DNA of 64,000 nt from Fibrobacter sp. UWB4 (GTDB lineage Bacteria; Fibrobacterota; Fibrobacteria; Fibrobacterales; Fibrobacteraceae): the NCBI RefSeq assembly GCF_002210345.1, contig NZ_MWQI01000007.1, positions 62,001 through 126,000 on the forward strand, read 5' to 3'. This document shows positions 4,769-25,033 of this stretch, piece by piece (positions within the stretch are counted from its first letter, which is position 1; the number at the start of each line of letters is the position of its first letter). The position numbers and the translations under genes were made by a program. A model generated the notes under the pieces. That model made no database searches, was not told where the DNA came from, and saw nothing but the letters and a program-made list of their open reading frames with translations.

Positions 4769-6547
4769 ATGAATAAAAAAATGCTGACAATAACAGCAGT
4801 GGCGGCTCTTGTAGGAGGAACCGCTTCTTATGCAGCAACTTCTGATGACGTTAAGTCTACAGATAAAGAATGGGCCGATGAATCCGCACCGGCTACTTCT
4901 CGAATGAGCAATAGCGTTAAGAAGTTTGTTGAAGCCCAGAAGAGCAATGCTCAGAAGCGTAAGGTTTCTCTGAAGTCTGACGTTTTGGGTCGCCGTGGCG
5001 GTGCTCAGAAGGGCGCTCTGGACTACGCAATCAAGGATTCTGACGTTCAGAAGATGAAGGTTGTCATTAACGATGTCAAGACGAATGATATTCCGTTGCC
5101 GACTGTTAGTGGACGTTATGAATTCAACCCGAATACGAATCAGAAGGCTTACTGGCTGAATGGTACCAAGGTTAGCGAATCAGAGTATCTTTCGAAGGCT
5201 GAAAAGCGCGAGAAGAAGTACAATGATTCCAAGAAGACTTTTGTCTCGCCGCGTACGGCATACTTGACGGCTAGCGAAATTGAAAAGGAACTTGCAAGCA
5301 GCGAAACCAAGTACATCACTGAATATAAGGAAGTTGAACCAAACCTTTCTTATGGTTCTCAGGATTACAGAGATTATTCGTATATCCTTCAGAAGTCTGG
5401 TGTCACCAGTTATGCACATAACAATGGCGTTAAGGGCCAGGGCGTCGGCGTCTATTATAACGAAGGTGGCTGCCCTCCGCTTAGCTACGTGAATACAAGC
5501 TATTATACACGCTTGGGAACTTGCCCGGGTTATGCTACGCATGTTATTGGCGTTACGAGGGTCTTGCAGACTACCGCTCCTGAAGCTATGATTTATGGTA
5601 TCGATGGCGTGAATTATCCGACGAACGTGAGCAACTACGCCCAGCCGATCATGATTGGCTCTCAGTCCTGGAGCTTTGTCCTGGATGATAATGGCTATAC
5701 TTCTTATGATGCTGTTATGGACAACTACATCTATACGAACCGAGTTGTAGAATTTGTCGCTGCTGGCAATGGCGGCAGACAAAGCTATATCGGTTCTCCG
5801 AGTAGAGCATTGAATGCCATTTCTGTTGGCGCTGTCTCTCCGGTTGACAATATGTATGTTTCGTATTCGTCTTCCAAGAACTCGATTGCTCTGAATGACA
5901 AGCCTGAAGTGGCCAACTATACGAGCTTCCGCTTCCCGGGCGATGCTTCTTATACCGTTTCTGGTAAGACGTATAACGGCACCTTCAATGGTACAAGTGC
6001 TGCAACGCCGTTTATGGCAGGCATGACTGCTAACATGCTTTCTCAGCACCACTTCCTGTGGTGGCATCCGGAAGTTGTCAAGGCTCTCTTGATCGCTGGC
6101 AGCAAGTCCGTTGAAAATTCGGATTATGATGTTGACGGTTCAAGCCGCTTCTTGGCCGGCATTCCGCATTATTCCAGCTTCACCTGGTCTGATGCATATC
6201 GCTGGCGTTTCTGGCAGGGCGAAAACAACAGCAATTTCGATTCGAATAAAGAAATTGTCTTCACGGAATACAGCATCCAGAAGGGCAAGCATTACCGCCT
6301 TGCTATTTCCTGGTTGACTTCTGGTGAATATGCCTTGGCAAACAAGAATGTGGCTCAGGATATCGACTTGAGCGTCTGGCAGAATGGTACCCGTATCAAG
6401 AATTCTGCATCGGCCAAGAACCCGTACGAACTTGTTGACTTCGTGGCTCCGGAAGCAGGATCTATTGAAGTCCGCATCAAGCGTTTTGCTAACCGTTCTA
6501 CAAGCGAAAAGGTCATTCTCGGCTACGCTTTCGTGAAGGTTGACTAA
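4769..6547 (+). CDS. Secreted S8 (subtilisin-like) serine peptidase with Glu at the Asp position
   Basis: 592 aa with a clear signal peptide (MNKKMLTITAVAALVGGTASYA). A propeptide-like region of about 190 residues precedes the catalytic domain. Subtilase landmarks are the strand KGQGVGVYYNEGG (about 222-234), histidine in GYATHVIGV (H258), oxyanion asparagine in AAGNGG (N334) and nucleophile serine in NGTSAATP (S410). Aligned on KGQGV, the catalytic aspartate position carries glutamate (E232). A C-terminal beta-rich domain of about 130 residues follows. Most likely an exported protease or a substrate-processing enzyme. The family call rests on the His, Asn and Ser blocks. No sorting domain was recognised at the C-terminus. 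It is a single gene with its own promoter region and terminator. Confidence 0.85.
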   Translation: MNKKMLTITAVAALVGGTASYAATSDDVKSTDKEWADESAPATSRMSNSVKKFVEAQKSNAQKRKVSLKSDVLGRRGGAQKGALDYAIKDSDVQKMKVVINDVKTNDIPLPTVSGRYEFNPNTNQKAYWLNGTKVSESEYLSKAEKREKKYNDSKKTFVSPRTAYLTASEIEKELASSETKYITEYKEVEPNLSYGSQDYRDYSYILQKSGVTSYAHNNGVKGQGVGVYYNEGGCPPLSYVNTSYYTRLGTCPGYATHVIGVTRVLQTTAPEAMIYGIDGVNYPTNVSNYAQPIMIGSQSWSFVLDDNGYTSYDAVMDNYIYTNRVVEFVAAGNGGRQSYIGSPSRALNAISVGAVSPVDNMYVSYSSSKNSIALNDKPEVANYTSFRFPGDASYTVSGKTYNGTFNGTSAATPFMAGMTANMLSQHHFLWWHPEVVKALLIAGSKSVENSDYDVDGSSRFLAGIPHYSSFTWSDAYRWRFWQGENNSNFDSNKEIVFTEYSIQKGKHYRLAISWLTSGEYALANKNVAQDIDLSVWQNGTRIKNSASAKNPYELVDFVAPEAGSIEVRIKRFANRSTSEKVILGYAFVKVD

Positions 6548-6590
6548 GCTTGTTCTCTTTTCGTTTTGAACAGCGATAAAACCCAAAAGG

Positions 6591-6620
6591 CCCGGCGATT
6601 TTTTCGTCGGGTTTTTTGTA
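6591..6620 (+). terminator. Terminator after the S8-like peptidase
   Basis: A 7-base stem, CCCGGCG with CGTCGGG (one G.T pair), is followed by a run of T. It lies 44 bases after the peptidase stop and just before the IS left-end hairpin. Confidence 0.8.
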
Positions 6621-6628
6621 TAAATGAA

Positions 6629-7327
6629 AACCACCAGCTAGGCTGGTGGTTCAAAAGAGCCTTCTGGCGTTGCGTCCTCGGATAAAAAGAAATCCCTTGA
6701 TTACTGTTGATATGCGGTCTGCCAACTGCATAACAATAAAATCAAAGGATTTCAAATGAATTATAGAAATAATAACACATTAGCTCATACATCGTGGAAC
6801 TGCAAATACCATATTGTGTTTGCTCCTAAATTTAGAAGGAAAGTTTTTTACGGGGAGAAAAAGGTTGAAATCGGGGCAATCCTGAGAAAGCTTTGCGAAT
6901 GGAAACAGGTCAATATTTTGGAGGCTGAGGTTTGCCCGGATCACGTTCACATGTTGGTCGAGATTCCACCCAAAGTGAGCGTTTCGGGTTTTGTCGGGTA
7001 CTTGAAAGGGAAAAGTAGCCTGATGATCTACGAAAAGTACAAATCACTCCAGTTCAAATACCGTAACAGGGAATTTTGGTGTCGCGGCTACTATGTTGAC
7101 ACGACTGGTAAAAATACGGCAAGGATTGCAACGTATATTCAAAATCAGCTGAAGGAAGACCAGTACGGAGAACAGTTGACAATGCTGGGAAAACTATAGC
7201 CCGTTTACGGGCCGCCGGTAAGGAAAACTCGCAAGTGGCAGATCGTGTTACGCGACGTGACGCGTGGCTAGTATCCTAGGGCAGGGCCCGCATATGAAGA
7301 ACCACCGGCTACGCCGGTGGGTTCCTT
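6629..7327 (+). mobile_element. IS200-type insertion sequence (tnpA only)
   Basis: The element is bounded by subterminal hairpins, as in the IS200/IS605 family. The left hairpin is at 6629-6651 (AACCACCAGC, loop TAG, GCTGGTGGTT). The right one is at about 7300-7322 (CCACCGGC, loop TAC, GCCGGTGG). It holds one tnpA gene and no tnpB. About 100 bases between the tnpA stop and the right hairpin contain several short self-complementary blocks. It sits between the peptidase terminator and the next gene, whose start codon is only about 30 bases past the right hairpin. Exact cleavage sites were not determined. Confidence 0.85.
6756..7199 (+). CDS. tnpA: IS200/IS605-family Y1 HUH transposase TnpA
   Basis: 147 aa, normal size for the family. 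The metal-binding HUH motif is in CPDHVHMLVEIPP (His-Val-His at about residues 65-67), and the catalytic tyrosine is in TYIQNQLKED near residue 127. The N-terminal part (HTSWNCKYHIVFAPKFRRKVF) is characteristic. The enzyme cuts and joins single-stranded DNA at the element's hairpin ends. The reading frame is intact, so the element may still be mobile. The ribosome-binding site is AAAGGA before the start. Confidence 0.95.
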   Translation: MNYRNNNTLAHTSWNCKYHIVFAPKFRRKVFYGEKKVEIGAILRKLCEWKQVNILEAEVCPDHVHMLVEIPPKVSVSGFVGYLKGKSSLMIYEKYKSLQFKYRNREFWCRGYYVDTTGKNTARIATYIQNQLKEDQYGEQLTMLGKL

Positions 7328-7343
7328 TTTGTGCTTAATTATA

Positions 7344-7349
7344 TATATT
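7344..7349 (+). promoter_or_regulatory. -10-like box directly downstream of the IS element
   Basis: TATATT lies 6 bases before the ATG at 7356. The position expected for a -35 box, 17 bases further upstream, falls at 7321-7326, the edge of the IS right hairpin. The IS may therefore have replaced or donated the upstream part of this promoter. Confidence 0.35.
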
Positions 7350-7355
7350 CATTCT

Positions 7356-9092
7356 ATGATATTTCATTTTTCTCGTTTAGGCTTTTGGGGGTGTGCTTCG
7401 CAGGCTGTTCTTTTGCTTGCGCTGTTCCAGTCGTCGGTTTTTGCAGCGGAACTTGTAAAGCAAAGTATAGACACGACCGATGCCATGCAGACGCTGTCAA
7501 ATTTCGATCGCGGATTCTACACGCCGCAGGTGTTGCATATAAAGCCCTCGGGCGGTAAGCCGATTGAAAAACCTTATGGCAAATTGTTGCATTTGAGAGC
7601 CGAGATTTCGGAATTCAGCAGCCGCGCGTGGTTCGGGATTGATACGACGGGTGGCAAGAAGGATACGACTTGGGGCAAGAGCCAGGATCTCACGGAAGAT
7701 GCCTTGAATGTGTTGCAACAGACGTTTGACAACATCCGCAAGGATGGTGGGCACGTGATTGTGCGAATTTGTTATGACCCGTGGTATAATGGCCGGAGCA
7801 ATGTTACGCCGGAGAACAAGTGGGTGTTGCGTCATGTAGAGCAGCTTGCGCCAGTGCTCTCGAAGAATACGGACGTGATTGTGGCGCTCGAAATGGGCAT
7901 GCACGGCGCCTATGGCGAAATGCATTCCGACACAAGCATTACCTACGACCGCGTTGCCGAAGCGACGAACTTGATGCTCCGCAGCACACCTCCCGAACTC
8001 AAGATCCTTACGCGAACGGGAAACTATTCGGCGAAGGTGCTTGGCTTTGATAACTGGGGCGTGGACTTCCATATTGATGGCGAAAAGTTTGCAGAGGTTG
8101 CGAAAGCCAAGGGCGACACGATGTACCGTGTTGGAATGTTCAATGACGGCTACTTGGGAACGCAATACGATTACGGCACCTGGGGCGCGGACTGTAAGAC
8201 GTCCATCTGCCGTGAAGAGGGTGTTGCCTGGCTTGAAAAGTACGGCATCAACACGCCATACGGTGGCGAAGCGCTTACTACGCCCAATGGCTACGAAGTC
8301 ATCAATACGCCGGAGTTCCTTGCGTATGAAGGCTTCCGTACGCATACGAGCTATCTGAATATACAGTGGAACAACAACCTGATTGACAGCTGGAAGAAGT
8401 CGCATTTTAAAGGGAAAGATTTTGAATATGACGGCACAAAAATTGACTCGCTTACAGGTTTCAAGTACATCAACGACCATCTGGGTTATCGTTTTGTGCT
8501 GCGCGAATCCTGGATTACGGATAAGGTCGGTGCCGATGGCGTTTTCAAGGCTAAGCTGCGCATCCAGAATGTGGGCTTCGGCAACCTGACGCGCAAGATG
8601 AAGGCTTCGCTATATGTTAACGGCTATCGTCAAGAGGGTATGCTGGATACTTTGGCCGTTATTACTTATGATGTTCCGCTTTCTGATTCTGTTGATTTTA
8701 TGAAAGTGTATAGCCGCAAAATCGAAATAAAGGGGGCCGATACAGTGATGACTTTTGATGGGAATAATGAAATTGAATTTGAAGCGAACGTGCCAATTTT
8801 TAAGGAATGGAGAGGATGGCCCTTAGATATTTTCTTGCGTGTTTGTAGTGAAACTAATTCTAGCGATTGTATCCATTTTGCAAATGATTCGCTACGTGCA
8901 GGAGCTATATATGGAGGAATACGAATCGGAAGTTTTGTTGTAGATGATAGGGAACAGTCTATTGACCCGCGCTTTTCGCGAACAGGTGATGCTGAAAAAC
9001 AAAATACGCCCTTTGTGCAACGTATCCGCAATAACATCGTTATTCACAATGGTGACAAACGATACCGCTTGAACGGTGCGGGAATCCAGTAA
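7356..9092 (+). CDS. Secreted DUF4874/DUF4832 protein
   Basis: 578 aa from the ATG at 7356. An in-frame GTG further upstream lies inside the IS hairpin and is not credible. A signal peptide ends near SSVFA. The segment from FDRGFYTPQVLHI through ALEMGMHGAYGEMHSD to YGGEALT and FRTHTSYLNIQWNN follows the arrangement of the paired DUF4874 and DUF4832 domains, which form a TIM-barrel-like secreted protein often found with carbohydrate-active enzymes. The acidic residues in ALEMGMHGAYGE look like candidate active-site positions. A C-terminal beta domain (about 390-550) follows. It neighbours GH5 and GH8 genes, which fits a glycan-related role, but no substrate can be named. It is convergent with the GH5 gene and shares a terminator with it. 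Confidence 0.75.
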   Translation: MIFHFSRLGFWGCASQAVLLLALFQSSVFAAELVKQSIDTTDAMQTLSNFDRGFYTPQVLHIKPSGGKPIEKPYGKLLHLRAEISEFSSRAWFGIDTTGGKKDTTWGKSQDLTEDALNVLQQTFDNIRKDGGHVIVRICYDPWYNGRSNVTPENKWVLRHVEQLAPVLSKNTDVIVALEMGMHGAYGEMHSDTSITYDRVAEATNLMLRSTPPELKILTRTGNYSAKVLGFDNWGVDFHIDGEKFAEVAKAKGDTMYRVGMFNDGYLGTQYDYGTWGADCKTSICREEGVAWLEKYGINTPYGGEALTTPNGYEVINTPEFLAYEGFRTHTSYLNIQWNNNLIDSWKKSHFKGKDFEYDGTKIDSLTGFKYINDHLGYRFVLRESWITDKVGADGVFKAKLRIQNVGFGNLTRKMKASLYVNGYRQEGMLDTLAVITYDVPLSDSVDFMKVYSRKIEIKGADTVMTFDGNNEIEFEANVPIFKEWRGWPLDIFLRVCSETNSSDCIHFANDSLRAGAIYGGIRIGSFVVDDREQSIDPRFSRTGDAEKQNTPFVQRIRNNIVIHNGDKRYRLNGAGIQ

Positions 9093-9175
9093 TGTAGACC
9101 GTAACTTTCCGGACTTGTTTCTTGCGTCGTTCTGGGTATGCGGAGCGTACGAAGAATCCGAAGCATTGTAAAAAG

Positions 9176-9206
9176 AAAGACCGCAGCGGATTGCTGCGGT
9201 CTTTTA
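9176..9206. terminator. Bidirectional terminator between the DUF4832 and GH5 genes
   Basis: An 11-base perfect stem (AAGACCGCAGC and complement) has a 5-base loop, A-rich on the left and T-rich on the right. It serves both convergent genes. Confidence 0.9.
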
Positions 9207-9227
9207 AACTTTCAAGAATCTAAGCGA

Positions 9228-11468
9228 TTACTTGTTGGTCCAGCGGATGGAGGCCTTCTGGCTGCCCTGGCGGACGATCAGCGTGTAGGAACCGTTCGGG
9301 AGACCCTTGAGGTCGATGGCGTGGTTGCCCTTGCCATAGACATCGGACATCTGCTTTACGCTTGCGCCGAGAGCATCATAGATATCCACCTTCACGAGAC
9401 CTGTGTTCTTGGTCGTAAAGTGGAGCATCGAGCCGTTCATGCTGGCCTGGAGGCTGTTTGCAACCTTGCGGACAGGCTTGATTGCAATCGAGGGGTTGAT
9501 GAACTCTTGGTATTCCTGCATGTTGACTGCCGAAGCGCTATCGCCGATGATGATGGTGATTTTTCTGTTGAGCTCTGCGTAAGTGTCGGTTTCCGGAGCC
9601 TTGGCGGTGACAACGATGATTGCGTTAGATGCGCCGGCGACGAATCCTGTGCCCTGCTTGGTGATGTATTCCGAAGTCGGCTTGCCATTGTAAGTGTAGG
9701 TAATCGGAGCCTTGCCGGTGAGGGTTGCATCTGGGAGGCCTTCGGTGGCGACAGCGCCGATTGCGACTTTCTGGTTCTTGAACGAATTCGAGATGCGGGC
9801 ATCACCCTTCTTGTATTCGATTTCGAAGGTGTCCTGCATTGCGCGGAAGCCAGGAATTGCGGCTGCTGTAGCGACGACTTTTGCCTTTCCGAAATTCTTG
9901 AAGTGGAGCATCCAGACCTTCTCGTTCTTCTGGGTGTTGGAGCAGTTCTTGTTGGAGCATGTGGTCTTGCTTACATCAACAATTGTCGGATCGAGAGATG
10001 TGATCGTGAACTTGGAACCTTCGCTTGTCTTGTCATCCATTGTGAGGATATAGTCGTTGGTTCCGTCGCCGTCGAAATCGAGTGTTCTGCCGGTCGTTGT
10101 TCCAGACTTGCAGGTGCCCGAGAATGAACAGGTGACGTTTTCGAGGTTCGGAATTGTTTGACCTGCAACCTGGGTGATCGTTACGACGGACTGGGAGCCG
10201 TCGTTGCCAGTCAAGATGGAAAAACCGTAATCGTTGATGACGAGGTCGCTTCCAGAAATGGATACGACTTTTTCGTTACTGGATGTATATGTGCAGCCAG
10301 ATTTGAGGACGCCAGAAATCTTGCCTTCGGTCTGTTTGGCTGTCGTTGCCTTGAAGGAGCAGCTGCCGCTCTTGCCCTTGACGAGAGAGTCGGCCCAAGC
10401 GCGGGCGTTCTTGGTGAGGTAGCTCTTGACAATGTTTCCAGAAGTGGTGAGTGTTGCTGCGTCAAGATCTGCGGCTGTCACGAGTGCCTTGTTGCCTGCG
10501 AAGATTGCTGACTTTTCGCTCTTTTCGTCAACGTGGCTGGTCTGCTGGCGAAGGCTCCAGTTGCAGTTCGGAATGTTGTTCTGGTCCATGAAGCTTGTCC
10601 AGGCGCTTGTTGCGCTGGAGTTCGGATCGCCATTACCGTCGGCGTTGGTCGTACCCCATTCGCTAATGAATACTGGATAGCCGGCGCTGAGAGCGCTAGT
10701 CACGTTTCCGCCGTAGCTGCCTTGAGAGTGGGTTGCCGCGTAGAAGTGCAAAACGTATGCGATATTTGTAGAAGATATCGGATCTCTTGCACCCTGTTCC
10801 GGATGCTGAGACCAGTTCGGTGTACCGACAATGATCAGGTTCTGCGTATTGGCACGGATTGCGGGGCAGATTGTGCTTGCATAGCTCTTGACTGCGCCCC
10901 AGTCACCACCACTGCCATTGACCGGTTCGTTGTAGATTTCGTAAATGACGTTCGGAACGTCTTTATACTTTTCAGAGACCGTCTTGAAGAACTCTTTGGC
11001 TAAGGACGTTTCCTGGTGGGCTCTGTGGCTGTGCCAGTCGATGATGATGTAGACGTCGTTTTCGATAGCGGCCTGAACCATGCGGTCGATCATAGACAAC
11101 TGTCCAGAAGGGTTTTCCTTGTAGGATGATCCTGCATCGACCTTGTTCTTTGTGCCGCCATCGCTATCGTAGTATTCGATACCCATGGCATAACGGAACA
11201 CGTCAATCTTAAAATTGTCAACGACCCACGAAATGACTGTAGGGTTATAATAGGAGTCGCCAGTTGCATCGGACCAGAAAAGGCTAACGCCGCGGAGCAT
11301 CGCCTGTTGGTTGTTCTTTGCGCCGACGATCTTGTTTCCGCTTGTGTGGAGGGCGCCATAATAAGAAACTGGGCCGACTTTCTTTGGTGTTGCTGTTGCG
11401 GCTCCGGCAGCGAATGCAGATACTGCTGCGCATGCCAAGAAGCCTGTCAGGAGCTTTGTCAATTTCAT
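9228..11468 (-). CDS. Secreted GH5 endoglucanase with C-terminal sorting domain
   Basis: 746 aa. A signal peptide (MKLTKLLTGFLACAAVSAFA) is followed by a glycoside hydrolase family 5 domain at about residues 30-325. It contains MLRGVSLFWSDATGD, the block DVYIIIDWHSHRA, the acid/base Glu in IYEIYNEP (E181) and the nucleophile Glu in VFISEWGTT (E270), so the catalytic pair is intact. These enzymes cut internal beta-1,4-glucan bonds, as in cellulose. Residues about 370-650 form two or three beta-sandwich or Ig-like segments with paired cysteines. The last 75 residues (VDIYDALGASVKQM...GSYTLIVRQGSQKASIRW) resemble the T9SS type A sorting domain, which suggests export to the surface. A single-gene unit on the minus strand. 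Confidence 0.93.
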   Translation of the reverse strand: MKLTKLLTGFLACAAVSAFAAGAATATPKKVGPVSYYGALHTSGNKIVGAKNNQQAMLRGVSLFWSDATGDSYYNPTVISWVVDNFKIDVFRYAMGIEYYDSDGGTKNKVDAGSSYKENPSGQLSMIDRMVQAAIENDVYIIIDWHSHRAHQETSLAKEFFKTVSEKYKDVPNVIYEIYNEPVNGSGGDWGAVKSYASTICPAIRANTQNLIIVGTPNWSQHPEQGARDPISSTNIAYVLHFYAATHSQGSYGGNVTSALSAGYPVFISEWGTTNADGNGDPNSSATSAWTSFMDQNNIPNCNWSLRQQTSHVDEKSEKSAIFAGNKALVTAADLDAATLTTSGNIVKSYLTKNARAWADSLVKGKSGSCSFKATTAKQTEGKISGVLKSGCTYTSSNEKVVSISGSDLVINDYGFSILTGNDGSQSVVTITQVAGQTIPNLENVTCSFSGTCKSGTTTGRTLDFDGDGTNDYILTMDDKTSEGSKFTITSLDPTIVDVSKTTCSNKNCSNTQKNEKVWMLHFKNFGKAKVVATAAAIPGFRAMQDTFEIEYKKGDARISNSFKNQKVAIGAVATEGLPDATLTGKAPITYTYNGKPTSEYITKQGTGFVAGASNAIIVVTAKAPETDTYAELNRKITIIIGDSASAVNMQEYQEFINPSIAIKPVRKVANSLQASMNGSMLHFTTKNTGLVKVDIYDALGASVKQMSDVYGKGNHAIDLKGLPNGSYTLIVRQGSQKASIRWTNK

Positions 11469-20668: not shown

Positions 20669-21316
20669 ATGAAATGGATATTATGCTCCCTGGTCTGGGT
20701 GATGGCCTTGATTTTGGCTGGATGCTCTAATCATCCGCCTTCTGCTGCGCAGTTCATGAATGTGAATAAAAATGGTGGAAGTCTTGTTTTGGGTGGAGTT
20801 GCCTTTGTTGGTGATGTTCATAGAGGAACTTATCGGTTTGAAAGTGATTATTTCGATGCGGAAGATTATGGGGCTCTTGATATATCATTTTTAATGCGGT
20901 TTGATCACTTTATATTTGGCGCGTCTCTCGAAAATATTTCAATTAGTGGTATTGCGGGTTTTCGAAGTCAATATGTAGGTTTGCAGGGATGGGGTTTGTT
21001 TGCAATAAATACTGTTGATAGAGACGCTGTTCCTTTTTTTGGAGGTCTGATGTTGATAGAAGAATATCCTGTAAATGAAAATTTTAAACTAGGATTTAGT
21101 GAGCATATTTCTCGTAATGCATATAATGTTGATGAAAATCTTGGTGGTATAGGTTTTTATTCTACTGGTTTTTATGATGAATTTGGTGTAGGGACTTATT
21201 TGACTTATAAAGGCTTTTCCCTTGAATTTCGCTACGGTCGAGAGATTGACGAACCGAGAAATCGATTTTATTTTATGATAAATTATGCGTTTATGAATGG
21301 AGAGTCGTCAAAATAA
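20669..21316 (+). CDS. Lineage-specific lipoprotein, paralogue of the protein at 15950
   Basis: 215 aa with a lipoprotein signal and lipobox LILAGC. It shares the mature N-terminus CSNHPPSAAQFMNV with the 15950 gene product, as well as LMLIE, FSEHISRNAYNV, GTYLTYKGFSLEFRYGREI and EPRNRFYFM. A small outer-membrane beta-barrel or sandwich is likely from the strand pattern, but this is inference. TATAAT lies only 2 bases before the ATG, too close to drive this start, so the gene is probably read from upstream. Confidence 0.7.
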   Translation: MKWILCSLVWVMALILAGCSNHPPSAAQFMNVNKNGGSLVLGGVAFVGDVHRGTYRFESDYFDAEDYGALDISFLMRFDHFIFGASLENISISGIAGFRSQYVGLQGWGLFAINTVDRDAVPFFGGLMLIEEYPVNENFKLGFSEHISRNAYNVDENLGGIGFYSTGFYDEFGVGTYLTYKGFSLEFRYGREIDEPRNRFYFMINYAFMNGESSK

Positions 21317-22916: not shown

Positions 22917-22940
22917 AAAAAGCCCCCGGGCGGGGGCTTG
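22917..22940 (-). terminator. Terminator of the collagen-like lipoprotein gene
   Basis: The hairpin AGCCCCCGGGCGGGGGCT, with a T run on the minus strand, lies 18 bases past the stop at 22958. Confidence 0.85.
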
Positions 22941-22957: not shown

Positions 22958-25033
22958 CTAGTAGGAACGCAGGAATCCGTCGTCCAGAGCTGTGACGGGG
23001 ATGACTGTAGTGTTGTTGTCGGGGTCTACGATGATGGCGACGCCGGTCAGGTAATTAATCCAGTAGTTGAAATTATTTTCGTGCTTGTGGAACTGCAATG
23101 TGTAGTTGCTGTCGTCATGGATTTTTTTGTGGCTGATGGCGATGACAAATGGCACGAGGAATTGGTCATGCGAGATGGCGAGGGTCATCTTGTGCATGTT
23201 GTCGTATGTGAAGTATGTGCTGATAAACTCTTGAGTTCTTTCTTCGATGTTGTATAATGCGTCTTCGCATGCGGCTTTGTTTTCGCTATCGCTATTATTT
23301 TTCTTGTCATATTCTTCGTAGGCGACTTTGGAATAAATGCTCCAGCCCCAGCTGTTTTGACCTTGGCAATCTTTTTTTCTGTTATCGTTTCGGATGTACC
23401 AGGATTCAAGAAGGTCCATGTTCTGTGCATGGTATTCGTTGGAAGTTGTGTTTTTCCATTCGTCTTCGCTTCCGGTTGTTTGACCTTTATTTTCGGAAAT
23501 GATCCGTGCGGTCTGCTGGGTGCGGTAGACGTTTGTGTGCATGTAGAAAAAGTCGTCGATGTTGAGCTTTTTGAGTTTTTGGCCGACTTGCGTGGATTGA
23601 TCTATTCCGGTTTGGTTGAGGCTGCCGTTTGTGCCTGTATTGTTTCTGTCGCGGGCGGCATGGCGGAGGATGAATGCGACTTTTTCGTTGGGGCGGAGGC
23701 AGTAGAATACGTCGTACATGGATGAGAACATGTCTGTTGTGGAGCGCAAGACGTTACAAGCGTTGCTCAAAATTTCGACGGGCTTTGTGTCTTTTCCGTC
23801 CTTACCGTCTGCGCCGTCCTTTCCGTTTTTCAGTTCACCGACTTTCTTGTCGCCGCAGAAGATATCGTAACCGTCGCCTTCAGAGTTCTCTTCAACGCGG
23901 CATGATGTTCCGTCGCTTCCGTTCTTACCGTCGGCACCGTCTTTGCCGTTTTTCAGTTCGCCGACTTTCTTGTCGCCGCAGTAGACATCGTAACCGTCGC
24001 CTTCAGAGTTCTCTTCAACGCGGCAAGAAGATCCGTCGCTTCCGTTCTTGCCGTCGGCACCGTCTTTGCCGTTTTTCAGCTCACCGACTTTTTTGTCACC
24101 ACAGAAGACTTCGAACCCGTCGATGTCCTTGTTCTCTTCGATGCGGCACGACGTCCCGTCTTTTCCGTTCTTGCCGTCTGCACCGTCCTTGCCGTTTTTC
24201 AGTTCACCGACTTTTTCGTTGCCGCAGAAGATGTCGAACCCGTCGATGTCCTTGTTTTCTTCTACTCTGCACGACGTCCCGTCTTTTCCGTCCTTTCCGT
24301 CAGCGCCGTCTTTGCCGTTTTTCAGTTCGCCGACTTTTTCGTTGCCGCAGAAGATGTCGAACCCGTCGATGTCTTTGTTCTCTACAACGCGGCATGATGT
24401 TCCGTCGCTTCCGTTCTTGCCGTCTGCACCGTCCTTGCCGTTTTTCAGTTCACCGACTTTTTCGTTGCCGCAGAAGATATCGAATCCGTCGATGTCCTTG
24501 TTTTCTACAACGCGGCAAGAAGATCCGTCGCTTCCGTTCTTGCCGTCAGTGCCGTCCTTGCCGTTGCGCAATTCACCGACCTTTTCGTTCCCGCAGAAGA
24601 TGTCATATCCGTCGATGTCCTTGTTCTCTTCGATGCGGCACGACGTCCCGTCTTTTCCGTTCTTGCCGTCGGCACCGTCTTTGCCGTTTTTCAGCTCACC
24701 GACTTTTTTGTCACCACAGAAGACTTCGAACCCGTCGATGTCCTTGTTTTCTACAACGCGGCATGATGTTCCGTCGCTTCCGTCCTTACCGTCTGCGCCT
24801 GATTTGCCGTCCTTGCCGTTTTTACCATCTTTACCGTCCTTTCCGTCTTTGCCATTCAGGACGATACCTACGGAATCGCCACCACAAATAATCTTGAGAC
24901 CGCTATCGTCGTCTAGCGGTTCCGTTGTGCAGGCCAGTGCCGACATGTCCGGTGCCTCTGTGACTTGGTCGAGGCAGCCGTTAAGTGCGAAGATTGCGAA
25001 AATTGACGTTGCTAAGAGTAATTTGGATTTCAT
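22958..25033 (-). CDS. Lipoprotein with collagen-like repeats and a histidine phosphatase domain
   Basis: 691 aa. The lipobox is FALNGC (Cys20). Residues about 61-89 are pure Gly-X-Y (GKDGKDGKDGKNGKDG). Residues 90-416 are eight tandem 41-residue units: a Cys-bearing half of the type SCRVVENKDIDGFDIFCG, then EKVGELKNGKDGADGKNGSDG. Each unit has two cysteines, and a degenerate ninth unit precedes them. The C-terminal domain is a histidine phosphatase (phosphoglycerate-mutase-like). It has the catalytic motif LRHAARDR (R457, H458), YRTQQTARII and the second histidine in LAISHDQF (H622). The repeats look like a stalk holding the enzyme away from the membrane. The substrate is unknown. A terminator follows. 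Confidence 0.85.
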   Translation of the reverse strand: MKSKLLLATSIFAIFALNGCLDQVTEAPDMSALACTTEPLDDDSGLKIICGGDSVGIVLNGKDGKDGKDGKNGKDGKSGADGKDGSDGTSCRVVENKDIDGFEVFCGDKKVGELKNGKDGADGKNGKDGTSCRIEENKDIDGYDIFCGNEKVGELRNGKDGTDGKNGSDGSSCRVVENKDIDGFDIFCGNEKVGELKNGKDGADGKNGSDGTSCRVVENKDIDGFDIFCGNEKVGELKNGKDGADGKDGKDGTSCRVEENKDIDGFDIFCGNEKVGELKNGKDGADGKNGKDGTSCRIEENKDIDGFEVFCGDKKVGELKNGKDGADGKNGSDGSSCRVEENSEGDGYDVYCGDKKVGELKNGKDGADGKNGSDGTSCRVEENSEGDGYDIFCGDKKVGELKNGKDGADGKDGKDTKPVEILSNACNVLRSTTDMFSSMYDVFYCLRPNEKVAFILRHAARDRNNTGTNGSLNQTGIDQSTQVGQKLKKLNIDDFFYMHTNVYRTQQTARIISENKGQTTGSEDEWKNTTSNEYHAQNMDLLESWYIRNDNRKKDCQGQNSWGWSIYSKVAYEEYDKKNNSDSENKAACEDALYNIEERTQEFISTYFTYDNMHKMTLAISHDQFLVPFVIAISHKKIHDDSNYTLQFHKHENNFNYWINYLTGVAIIVDPDNNTTVIPVTALDDGFLRSY
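23786..24766 (-). repeat. Eight tandem 123-bp coding repeats
   Basis: The units encode the 41-residue Cys-containing collagen-like repeat of the lipoprotein. They alternate between recurring variants (DIDGFDIFCGNEK, DIDGFEVFCGDKK, EGDGYDIFCGDKK), a mosaic that suggests recombination or gene conversion among units. Copy number is likely to vary between strains. Confidence 0.9.

Follow-up and report, generated by a model that had tools for sequence, protein, structure and literature searches.

The Legionella envelope protein Lcl carries a glycan-binding head on a collagen-like stalk, and homologs have been reported across the Fibrobacterota-Chlorobiota-Bacteroidota group (PMC11162425). The Fibrobacter protein analyzed here resembles it in being a Gram-negative envelope protein with collagen-like repeats and a C-terminal globular head, and FISUMP proteins that share the Fibrobacter stalk unit can weakly match the Pfam Lcl_C model. 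Lcl, however, combines proline-containing repeats (GPQGLPGPKGD(K/R)GEA) with an N-terminal helix and a trimeric, disulfide-free head that binds glycans (PMC11162425), whereas the Fibrobacter protein has putative disulfide mini-domains, almost no proline, a lipobox, and a predicted enzyme head; the C-terminal Lcl_C domain (PF07603) by which the Lcl family is defined was absent from a Pfam scan of its 691 residues. The E. coli prophage proteins EPclA and EPclB also have collagen domains that vary in steps of three and are mixed with non-collagen modules, but these modules are of the coiled-coil, PfN and PfC kinds, and an enzyme head, a lipobox, and paired-Cys units are undescribed for them (PMC3368898). 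Within the same genome, FISUMP lipoproteins (Fib_succ_major, PF09603/TIGR02145) combine a lipobox with a stalk of two-Cys Gly-X-Y units, differing in their head and, as a rule, in having fewer units (1-5 by pattern).

For the head, two described branches of histidine phosphatases are relevant. With branch 1 (PF00300; PhoE 1h2e, RosC, PGAM5), the Fibrobacter domain shares the sequence profile, the fold, the RH motif, the second Arg, and the second His, but it differs in its invariant RHxxR and HD, its insertions, its secretion, and a TM-score of only about 0.35-0.47 on the query. With branch 2 (histidine acid phosphatases and phytases), it shares the RHxxR and HD signatures and an exported location, but its sequence profile matches branch 1, the proline of RHGxRxP is missing, and the Francisella tularensis acid phosphatase stands at rank 21 among the PDB fold matches listed. 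It has long been asked how Fibrobacter arranges proteins at its surface during cellulose degradation, and its envelope lipoproteins are in many cases uncharacterized.

The window, by which we mean the whole 64,000-nt stretch of Fibrobacter sp. UWB4 DNA that was analyzed, encodes the protein with the following features:

22958..25033, minus strand: whole gene, a 691-aa lipoprotein with stalk and histidine phosphatase (ORF list, sequence, Pfam)
24974..25033, minus strand: signal peptide and lipobox L-N-G-C with Cys20 (ALNG-C20; sequence, with an equivalent lipobox in the orthologs read)
24851..24934, minus strand: diverged first two-Cys mini-domain, residues 34-61, ACTTEPLDDDSGLKIICGGDSVGIVLNG (unit profile, E 2.6e-9)
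24770..24853, minus strand: unbroken Gly-X-Y run, residues 61-88, nine triplets plus Gly (Pfam Collagen)
23786..24769, minus strand: eight 41-aa (123-nt) units, residues 89-416, each a Cys-(14)-Cys mini-domain and a Gly-X-Y linker (sequence, unit profile, TRF)
22961..23785, minus strand: histidine phosphatase domain, residues about 417-691 (Pfam, conservation, model, fold search)
23651..23665, minus strand: RHAAR motif, residues 457-461, with predicted nucleophile H458 and phosphate-binding R457 and R461 (R, H, and R invariant in 50 relatives)
23522..23524, minus strand: R504, predicted phosphate-pocket arginine (invariant in 50 relatives)
23165..23170, minus strand: H622-D623, predicted second catalytic His and candidate proton donor Asp (HD invariant in 50 relatives)
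22920..22939, minus strand: intrinsic-terminator-like hairpin just past the stop codon (hairpin search)

The signal peptide and lipobox that mark bacterial lipoproteins are present, with processing predicted at LNG-C20, and the lipid anchor proposed in a preliminary description of this gene can be read in the sequence. Only two Pfam models exceed their gathering scores in the 691-aa protein, Collagen (1.5e-12) and His_Phos_1 (4.1e-8); matches to DUF2969 and Phage_Y01A were dismissed, as they score under their cut-offs. Two antisense ORFs (405 and 340 aa) across the array were also set aside as the complement of a Gly/Lys/Asp-rich repeat. The terminator-like hairpin directly 3′ of the stop codon suggests that the gene is probably monocistronic, and the neighboring genes for a MoxR ATPase, a GGDEF/EAL protein, and Pgi provide synteny but no clue to a substrate.

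Residues 89-416 form exactly eight 41-aa units of the GKDGADGKNGKDG type, each having Cys3, Cys18, and a Gly-X-Y stretch, as the preliminary description had counted. TRF analysis returned a period of 123 nt with 8.3 copies and 84% match (23794-24810, score 1243), far above chance. The earlier picture of a collagen-like Gly-X-Y array is likewise backed by the Pfam Collagen match but has to be refined: each unit in the array contains just 4 triplets, a 28-residue non-collagen mini-domain separates successive tracts, and a ninth, diverged unit and a 28-residue Gly-X-Y run lie ahead of the eight. Our 32-column unit profile recovers all eight array units as well as this diverged first unit; it matched nothing in the PDB, and neither Pfam nor NCBIfam has a model for the unit. 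Matches to PHROG tail-fibre families reflect Gly-X-Y composition, and a viral contig scan with three units found no relative, so a phage tail-fibre origin was dismissed. TRF also scores a three-unit period (369 nt, window 23789-24796) above the single unit, which hints at copying in three-unit blocks.

Glycine at strictly every third residue, the hallmark of collagen-like proteins, was found in 115 of 130 linkers, which are perfect Gly-X-Y, and the linker length is a multiple of three in 123 of the 130; most exceptions trace to variant units that the unit pattern passed over. Linker residues are 0.3% proline, with Lys predominating at X and Asp at Y, and glycine is retained. Read from their sequence, the linkers keep strict collagen phase minus collagen's usual chemistry. 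In the stalks of two other loci (L057, L068) and of a FISUMP protein from the same genome (L014), a second insert type of ~25 residues ending in EWLASLKG, such as KSAYEAAVSKGFTGTEEEWLASLKG, alternates with two-Cys units.

The mini-domains may each be closed by a disulfide. In a three-unit AlphaFold monomer model of low confidence (pLDDT 57), strands 3-8, 13-18, and 21-27 recur in all three copies, Cys3 opens strand 1 and Cys18 closes strand 2 at the open end of the hairpin, and the Gly-X-Y tracts are unordered. Such a placement would fit the needs of a cross-strand bridge, albeit at low confidence, and Cys pairing receives independent backing from the stalk Cys count past the lipobox, which is even in 25 of 26 genes with both phosphatase and Gly-X-Y stalk (range 6 to 28); the one odd gene (L087) has an uncertain start. 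Fibrobacter is a strict anaerobe. Its genome here encodes a DsbA-like lipoprotein with a CPYC motif (L193, G000:C1:625516-625920), and DsbB or VKOR was not found in that genome at the threshold used, a gap that weighs against disulfide bridging.

In the head, R457, H458, R461, R504, H622, and D623 are invariant in an alignment of 50 relatives from Fibrobacter and Bacteroidales contigs, and the only wholly acidic columns are D623 and one Glu/Asp position before the first strand. His_Phos_1 (PF00300) scores 33.5 bits against a cut-off of 21.7, over residues 454-544 only, which correspond to the first half of the domain. The AlphaFold model built from the 50-relative alignment has a pLDDT of 93.4 and a pTM of 0.93, and searching the PDB with it by Foldseek returned 233 chains at E <= 0.001 (best E 1.6e-7), the best 50 of which all have the histidine-phosphatase fold; Bacillus phosphoglycerate mutase, RosC, PGAM5, and phosphoserine phosphatase are among the matches listed. 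Both the superfamily motif (the R457-H458 nucleophile motif with pocket residues R504 and H622) and the alpha/beta core fold, as seen in the predicted model and its PDB matches, are present. The phosphatase domain thus appears as intact as the preliminary description proposed, and a missing catalytic histidine geometry, which it had named as evidence against itself, was not what we found; the active-site geometry is read from fold and conservation.

Searching the PDB with the head sequence alone gave weak results, while a profile search led to PhoE-like branch 1 enzymes. The named branch 1 equivalogs PmrG/Ais, SixA, GpmB, and CobC all score far under their NCBIfam cut-offs (PmrG 20.4 vs 170, SixA 19.1 vs 74.5), and no named NCBIfam enzyme family comes near its cut-off. 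Where branch 2 has RHGxRxP the head has RHAARDR, keeping RHxxR but lacking the final proline, and the HD motif of that branch is present as H622-D623. In branch 2 phytases, the HD aspartate donates the proton (PMC3969271), a role that D623 may share. By its sequence, the head joins a branch 1 profile with branch 2-like RHxxR and HD pairs. The invariant residues and the model suggest that it is probably an active, divergent member of the histidine phosphatases, common to Fibrobacter and rumen Bacteroidales and apparently uncharacterized. All solved enzymes are distant from the head (TM 0.35-0.47 on the query), so structures do not reveal its substrate.

The stalk units are a true, recombining mosaic, as the preliminary description had surmised from their recurring variants. 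Units within the gene have 74-92% of bases in common, the four-gamete test fails in 133 of 253 informative-site pairs, and failure climbs with inter-site distance (permutation p = 0.0005). All eight mini-domains find their best match within their own gene. Compared with the nearest ortholog, which is syntenic (L051 in genome G045), nucleotide identity is 94.5% for MoxR, 87% for the N-terminus and signal region, and 80% for the head but 64% for the stalk, where unit matches reach 69-77% at best. When 147 units of equal length from many species were compared, 37% had their nearest neighbor in the same gene, against 5% by shuffling. The locus between the GGDEF/EAL and MoxR genes is conserved in many species and there holds 3 to 13 core units, with some orthologs bearing an extra Ser-rich spacer or other unit types mixed in and some having long runs such as GDKGDKGDK. 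A frozen repeat number across strains, the other sign against itself that the preliminary description had named, thus has no counterpart between species. In the head tree, stalk type (Gly-X-Y vs Ser-rich or none) switches at least 3 times with contig-truncated genes set aside. Between species, the scope of a sample with one genome per Fibrobacter species, the stalk is rapidly re-cut and re-copied while the head stays fairly constant.

Phosphatase and Gly-X-Y stalk occur together in 26 of the 80 Fibrobacter species searched, many at one conserved locus. The preliminary description knew of no protein with this combination, and our search of the open-access literature turned up neither a collagen-like phosphatase nor the two-Cys unit; the combination is nevertheless not unique to this gene. 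The unit itself is far more widespread, with profile matches in 89 of 168 genomes of the phylum: 74 of the 80 Fibrobacter species, 14 other Fibrobacteraceae, and 1 genome of a second family in the same order. It was found in none of 198 Bacteroidales genomes and in none of 9 that carry the phosphatase, an order for which there is no positive-control genome. The Bacteroidales relatives of the phosphatase are stalk-free, stand-alone proteins of about 244 residues with a plain signal peptide, and their stand-alone, secreted form makes the stalk a probable addition of the Fibrobacter line. In the same genome as the focal gene, a 1401-aa protein and three lipoproteins with FISUMP domains contain further copies of the unit, and at sampled loci of other species the stalk carries mostly FISUMP heads, with one histidine phosphatase (L206) and one head without assignment (L196). 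Conversely, the same phosphatase is also found on Ser-rich stalks or stalkless, and at least six further members of its family with other stalks are encoded in this genome. These proteins form a conserved, well-defined family; of more interest than the single gene is the stalk unit, a spacer module that is shared and evolves fast.

We favor, at a probability of roughly 60%, the reading that this is a Fibrobacter envelope lipoprotein with a phosphomonoesterase head on a segmented, interchangeable, disulfide-clipped, proline-free collagen-like stalk. A rival that falls only somewhat short of an even chance is a monomeric chain, in which disulfide beads would be separated by flexible or polyglycine-II-like Gly-X-Y tracts and not by triple helices. 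Four proline-free triplets per unit are short for an autonomous triple helix, X and Y are mostly Lys and Asp, no trimerization domain is evident in the 691-aa protein, and the monomer model leaves the linkers unordered. Glycine at every third place, linker lengths that step by three across species, and orthologs with long GDKGDKGDK-type runs argue against such a chain and suggest that the tracts may be triple-helical or rod-like; this phase supports without proving a triple helix, because expansion of the DNA in 9-nt steps alone could yield the same lengths, and the steps are thus not decisive. Slippage and unequal crossing-over might also alter a near-neutral array freely, leaving stalk length functionless. 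Large turnover between close species and strong unit similarity within the gene are what this would produce, but the glycine phase, the even Cys number, and the Cys pattern survive that turnover, and we consider the proposal unlikely for the stalk as a whole, while length itself could still be nearly neutral.

Where the head is displayed, and whether it works as an enzyme, also bear on the favored reading. A lipobox by itself gives no facing, and the Bacteroidales relatives are stalkless with a plain signal peptide, so the stalk might span the periplasm or cell wall with no display outside. Parsed stalks of 206-766 aa in the 26 genes, however, seem over-long for the periplasm, and a spanning rod would need a constancy that these lengths do not have. 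In F. succinogenes S85, proteomics of the cell envelope detected a FISUMP-domain protein on cellulose only (PMC4619616), and this places it in the envelope without giving its facing. We regard a periplasmic position as doubtful, and the head may face outward. A head that keeps the fold but has lost catalysis, binding a ligand as FISUMP heads on the same stalk may do, is much less probable still. The stalk does bear FISUMP/Lcl_C-type heads, and the Legionella Lcl head binds glycosaminoglycans (PMC11162425), but six catalytic residues invariant from Fibrobacter to Bacteroidales would be unexpected in a dead enzyme.

Under the favored reading, the lipid anchor would hold the exported protein and the number of units would set the distance of the head from the membrane. 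Each segment would be a beta mini-domain of three strands, clipped by a single Cys-Cys bridge and followed by a proline-free Gly-X-Y connector, and recombination between near-identical units would reset stalk length and unit make-up with the head conserved. In the head, H458 would accept the phosphate, R457, R461, R504, and H622 would hold it, and D623 would probably give the proton, a set-up nearer to branch 2 acid phosphatases than to branch 1 mutases. As a guess, substrates could be extracellular phosphorylated solutes too charged for import, such as sugar, nucleotide, or inositol phosphates. The genus would then have several interchangeable spacers, the Gly-X-Y stalk among them. Taken to the family level, we see an even chance that Fibrobacteraceae possess a dedicated display-stalk system, in which a proline-free, disulfide-clipped, collagen-like unit serves phosphatase and FISUMP heads as a length-tunable, interchangeable spacer whose length is reset by recombination. 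If so, a stalk module shared by enzyme and lectin-like heads would be a concrete, testable part of the Fibrobacter surface, and nature would offer length variation to learn from in a collagen-like design without proline and with a disulfide bead every few triplets.

Among the paralogous histidine phosphatase lipoproteins of this genome (G000:C9, L013:4057-8219; L016, L017, L018, L021), several have Ser-rich linkers, two lie in tandem, and in L017 RHSKR replaces RHAER. In three Bacteroidales contigs (L162, L166, L167; around 5000-10500), the gene of the secreted phosphatase relative adjoins one for an ECF-type sigma factor and what is probably an anti-sigma gene, with serC- and serA-like genes slightly further along; a role in serine synthesis is disfavored because the protein has a signal peptide. 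Finally, the neighbor at window 20669-21316 belongs to a small lipoprotein-like family; in several species two or three copies of it stand in tandem next to MoxR, and it is also present in the L051-L057 loci.
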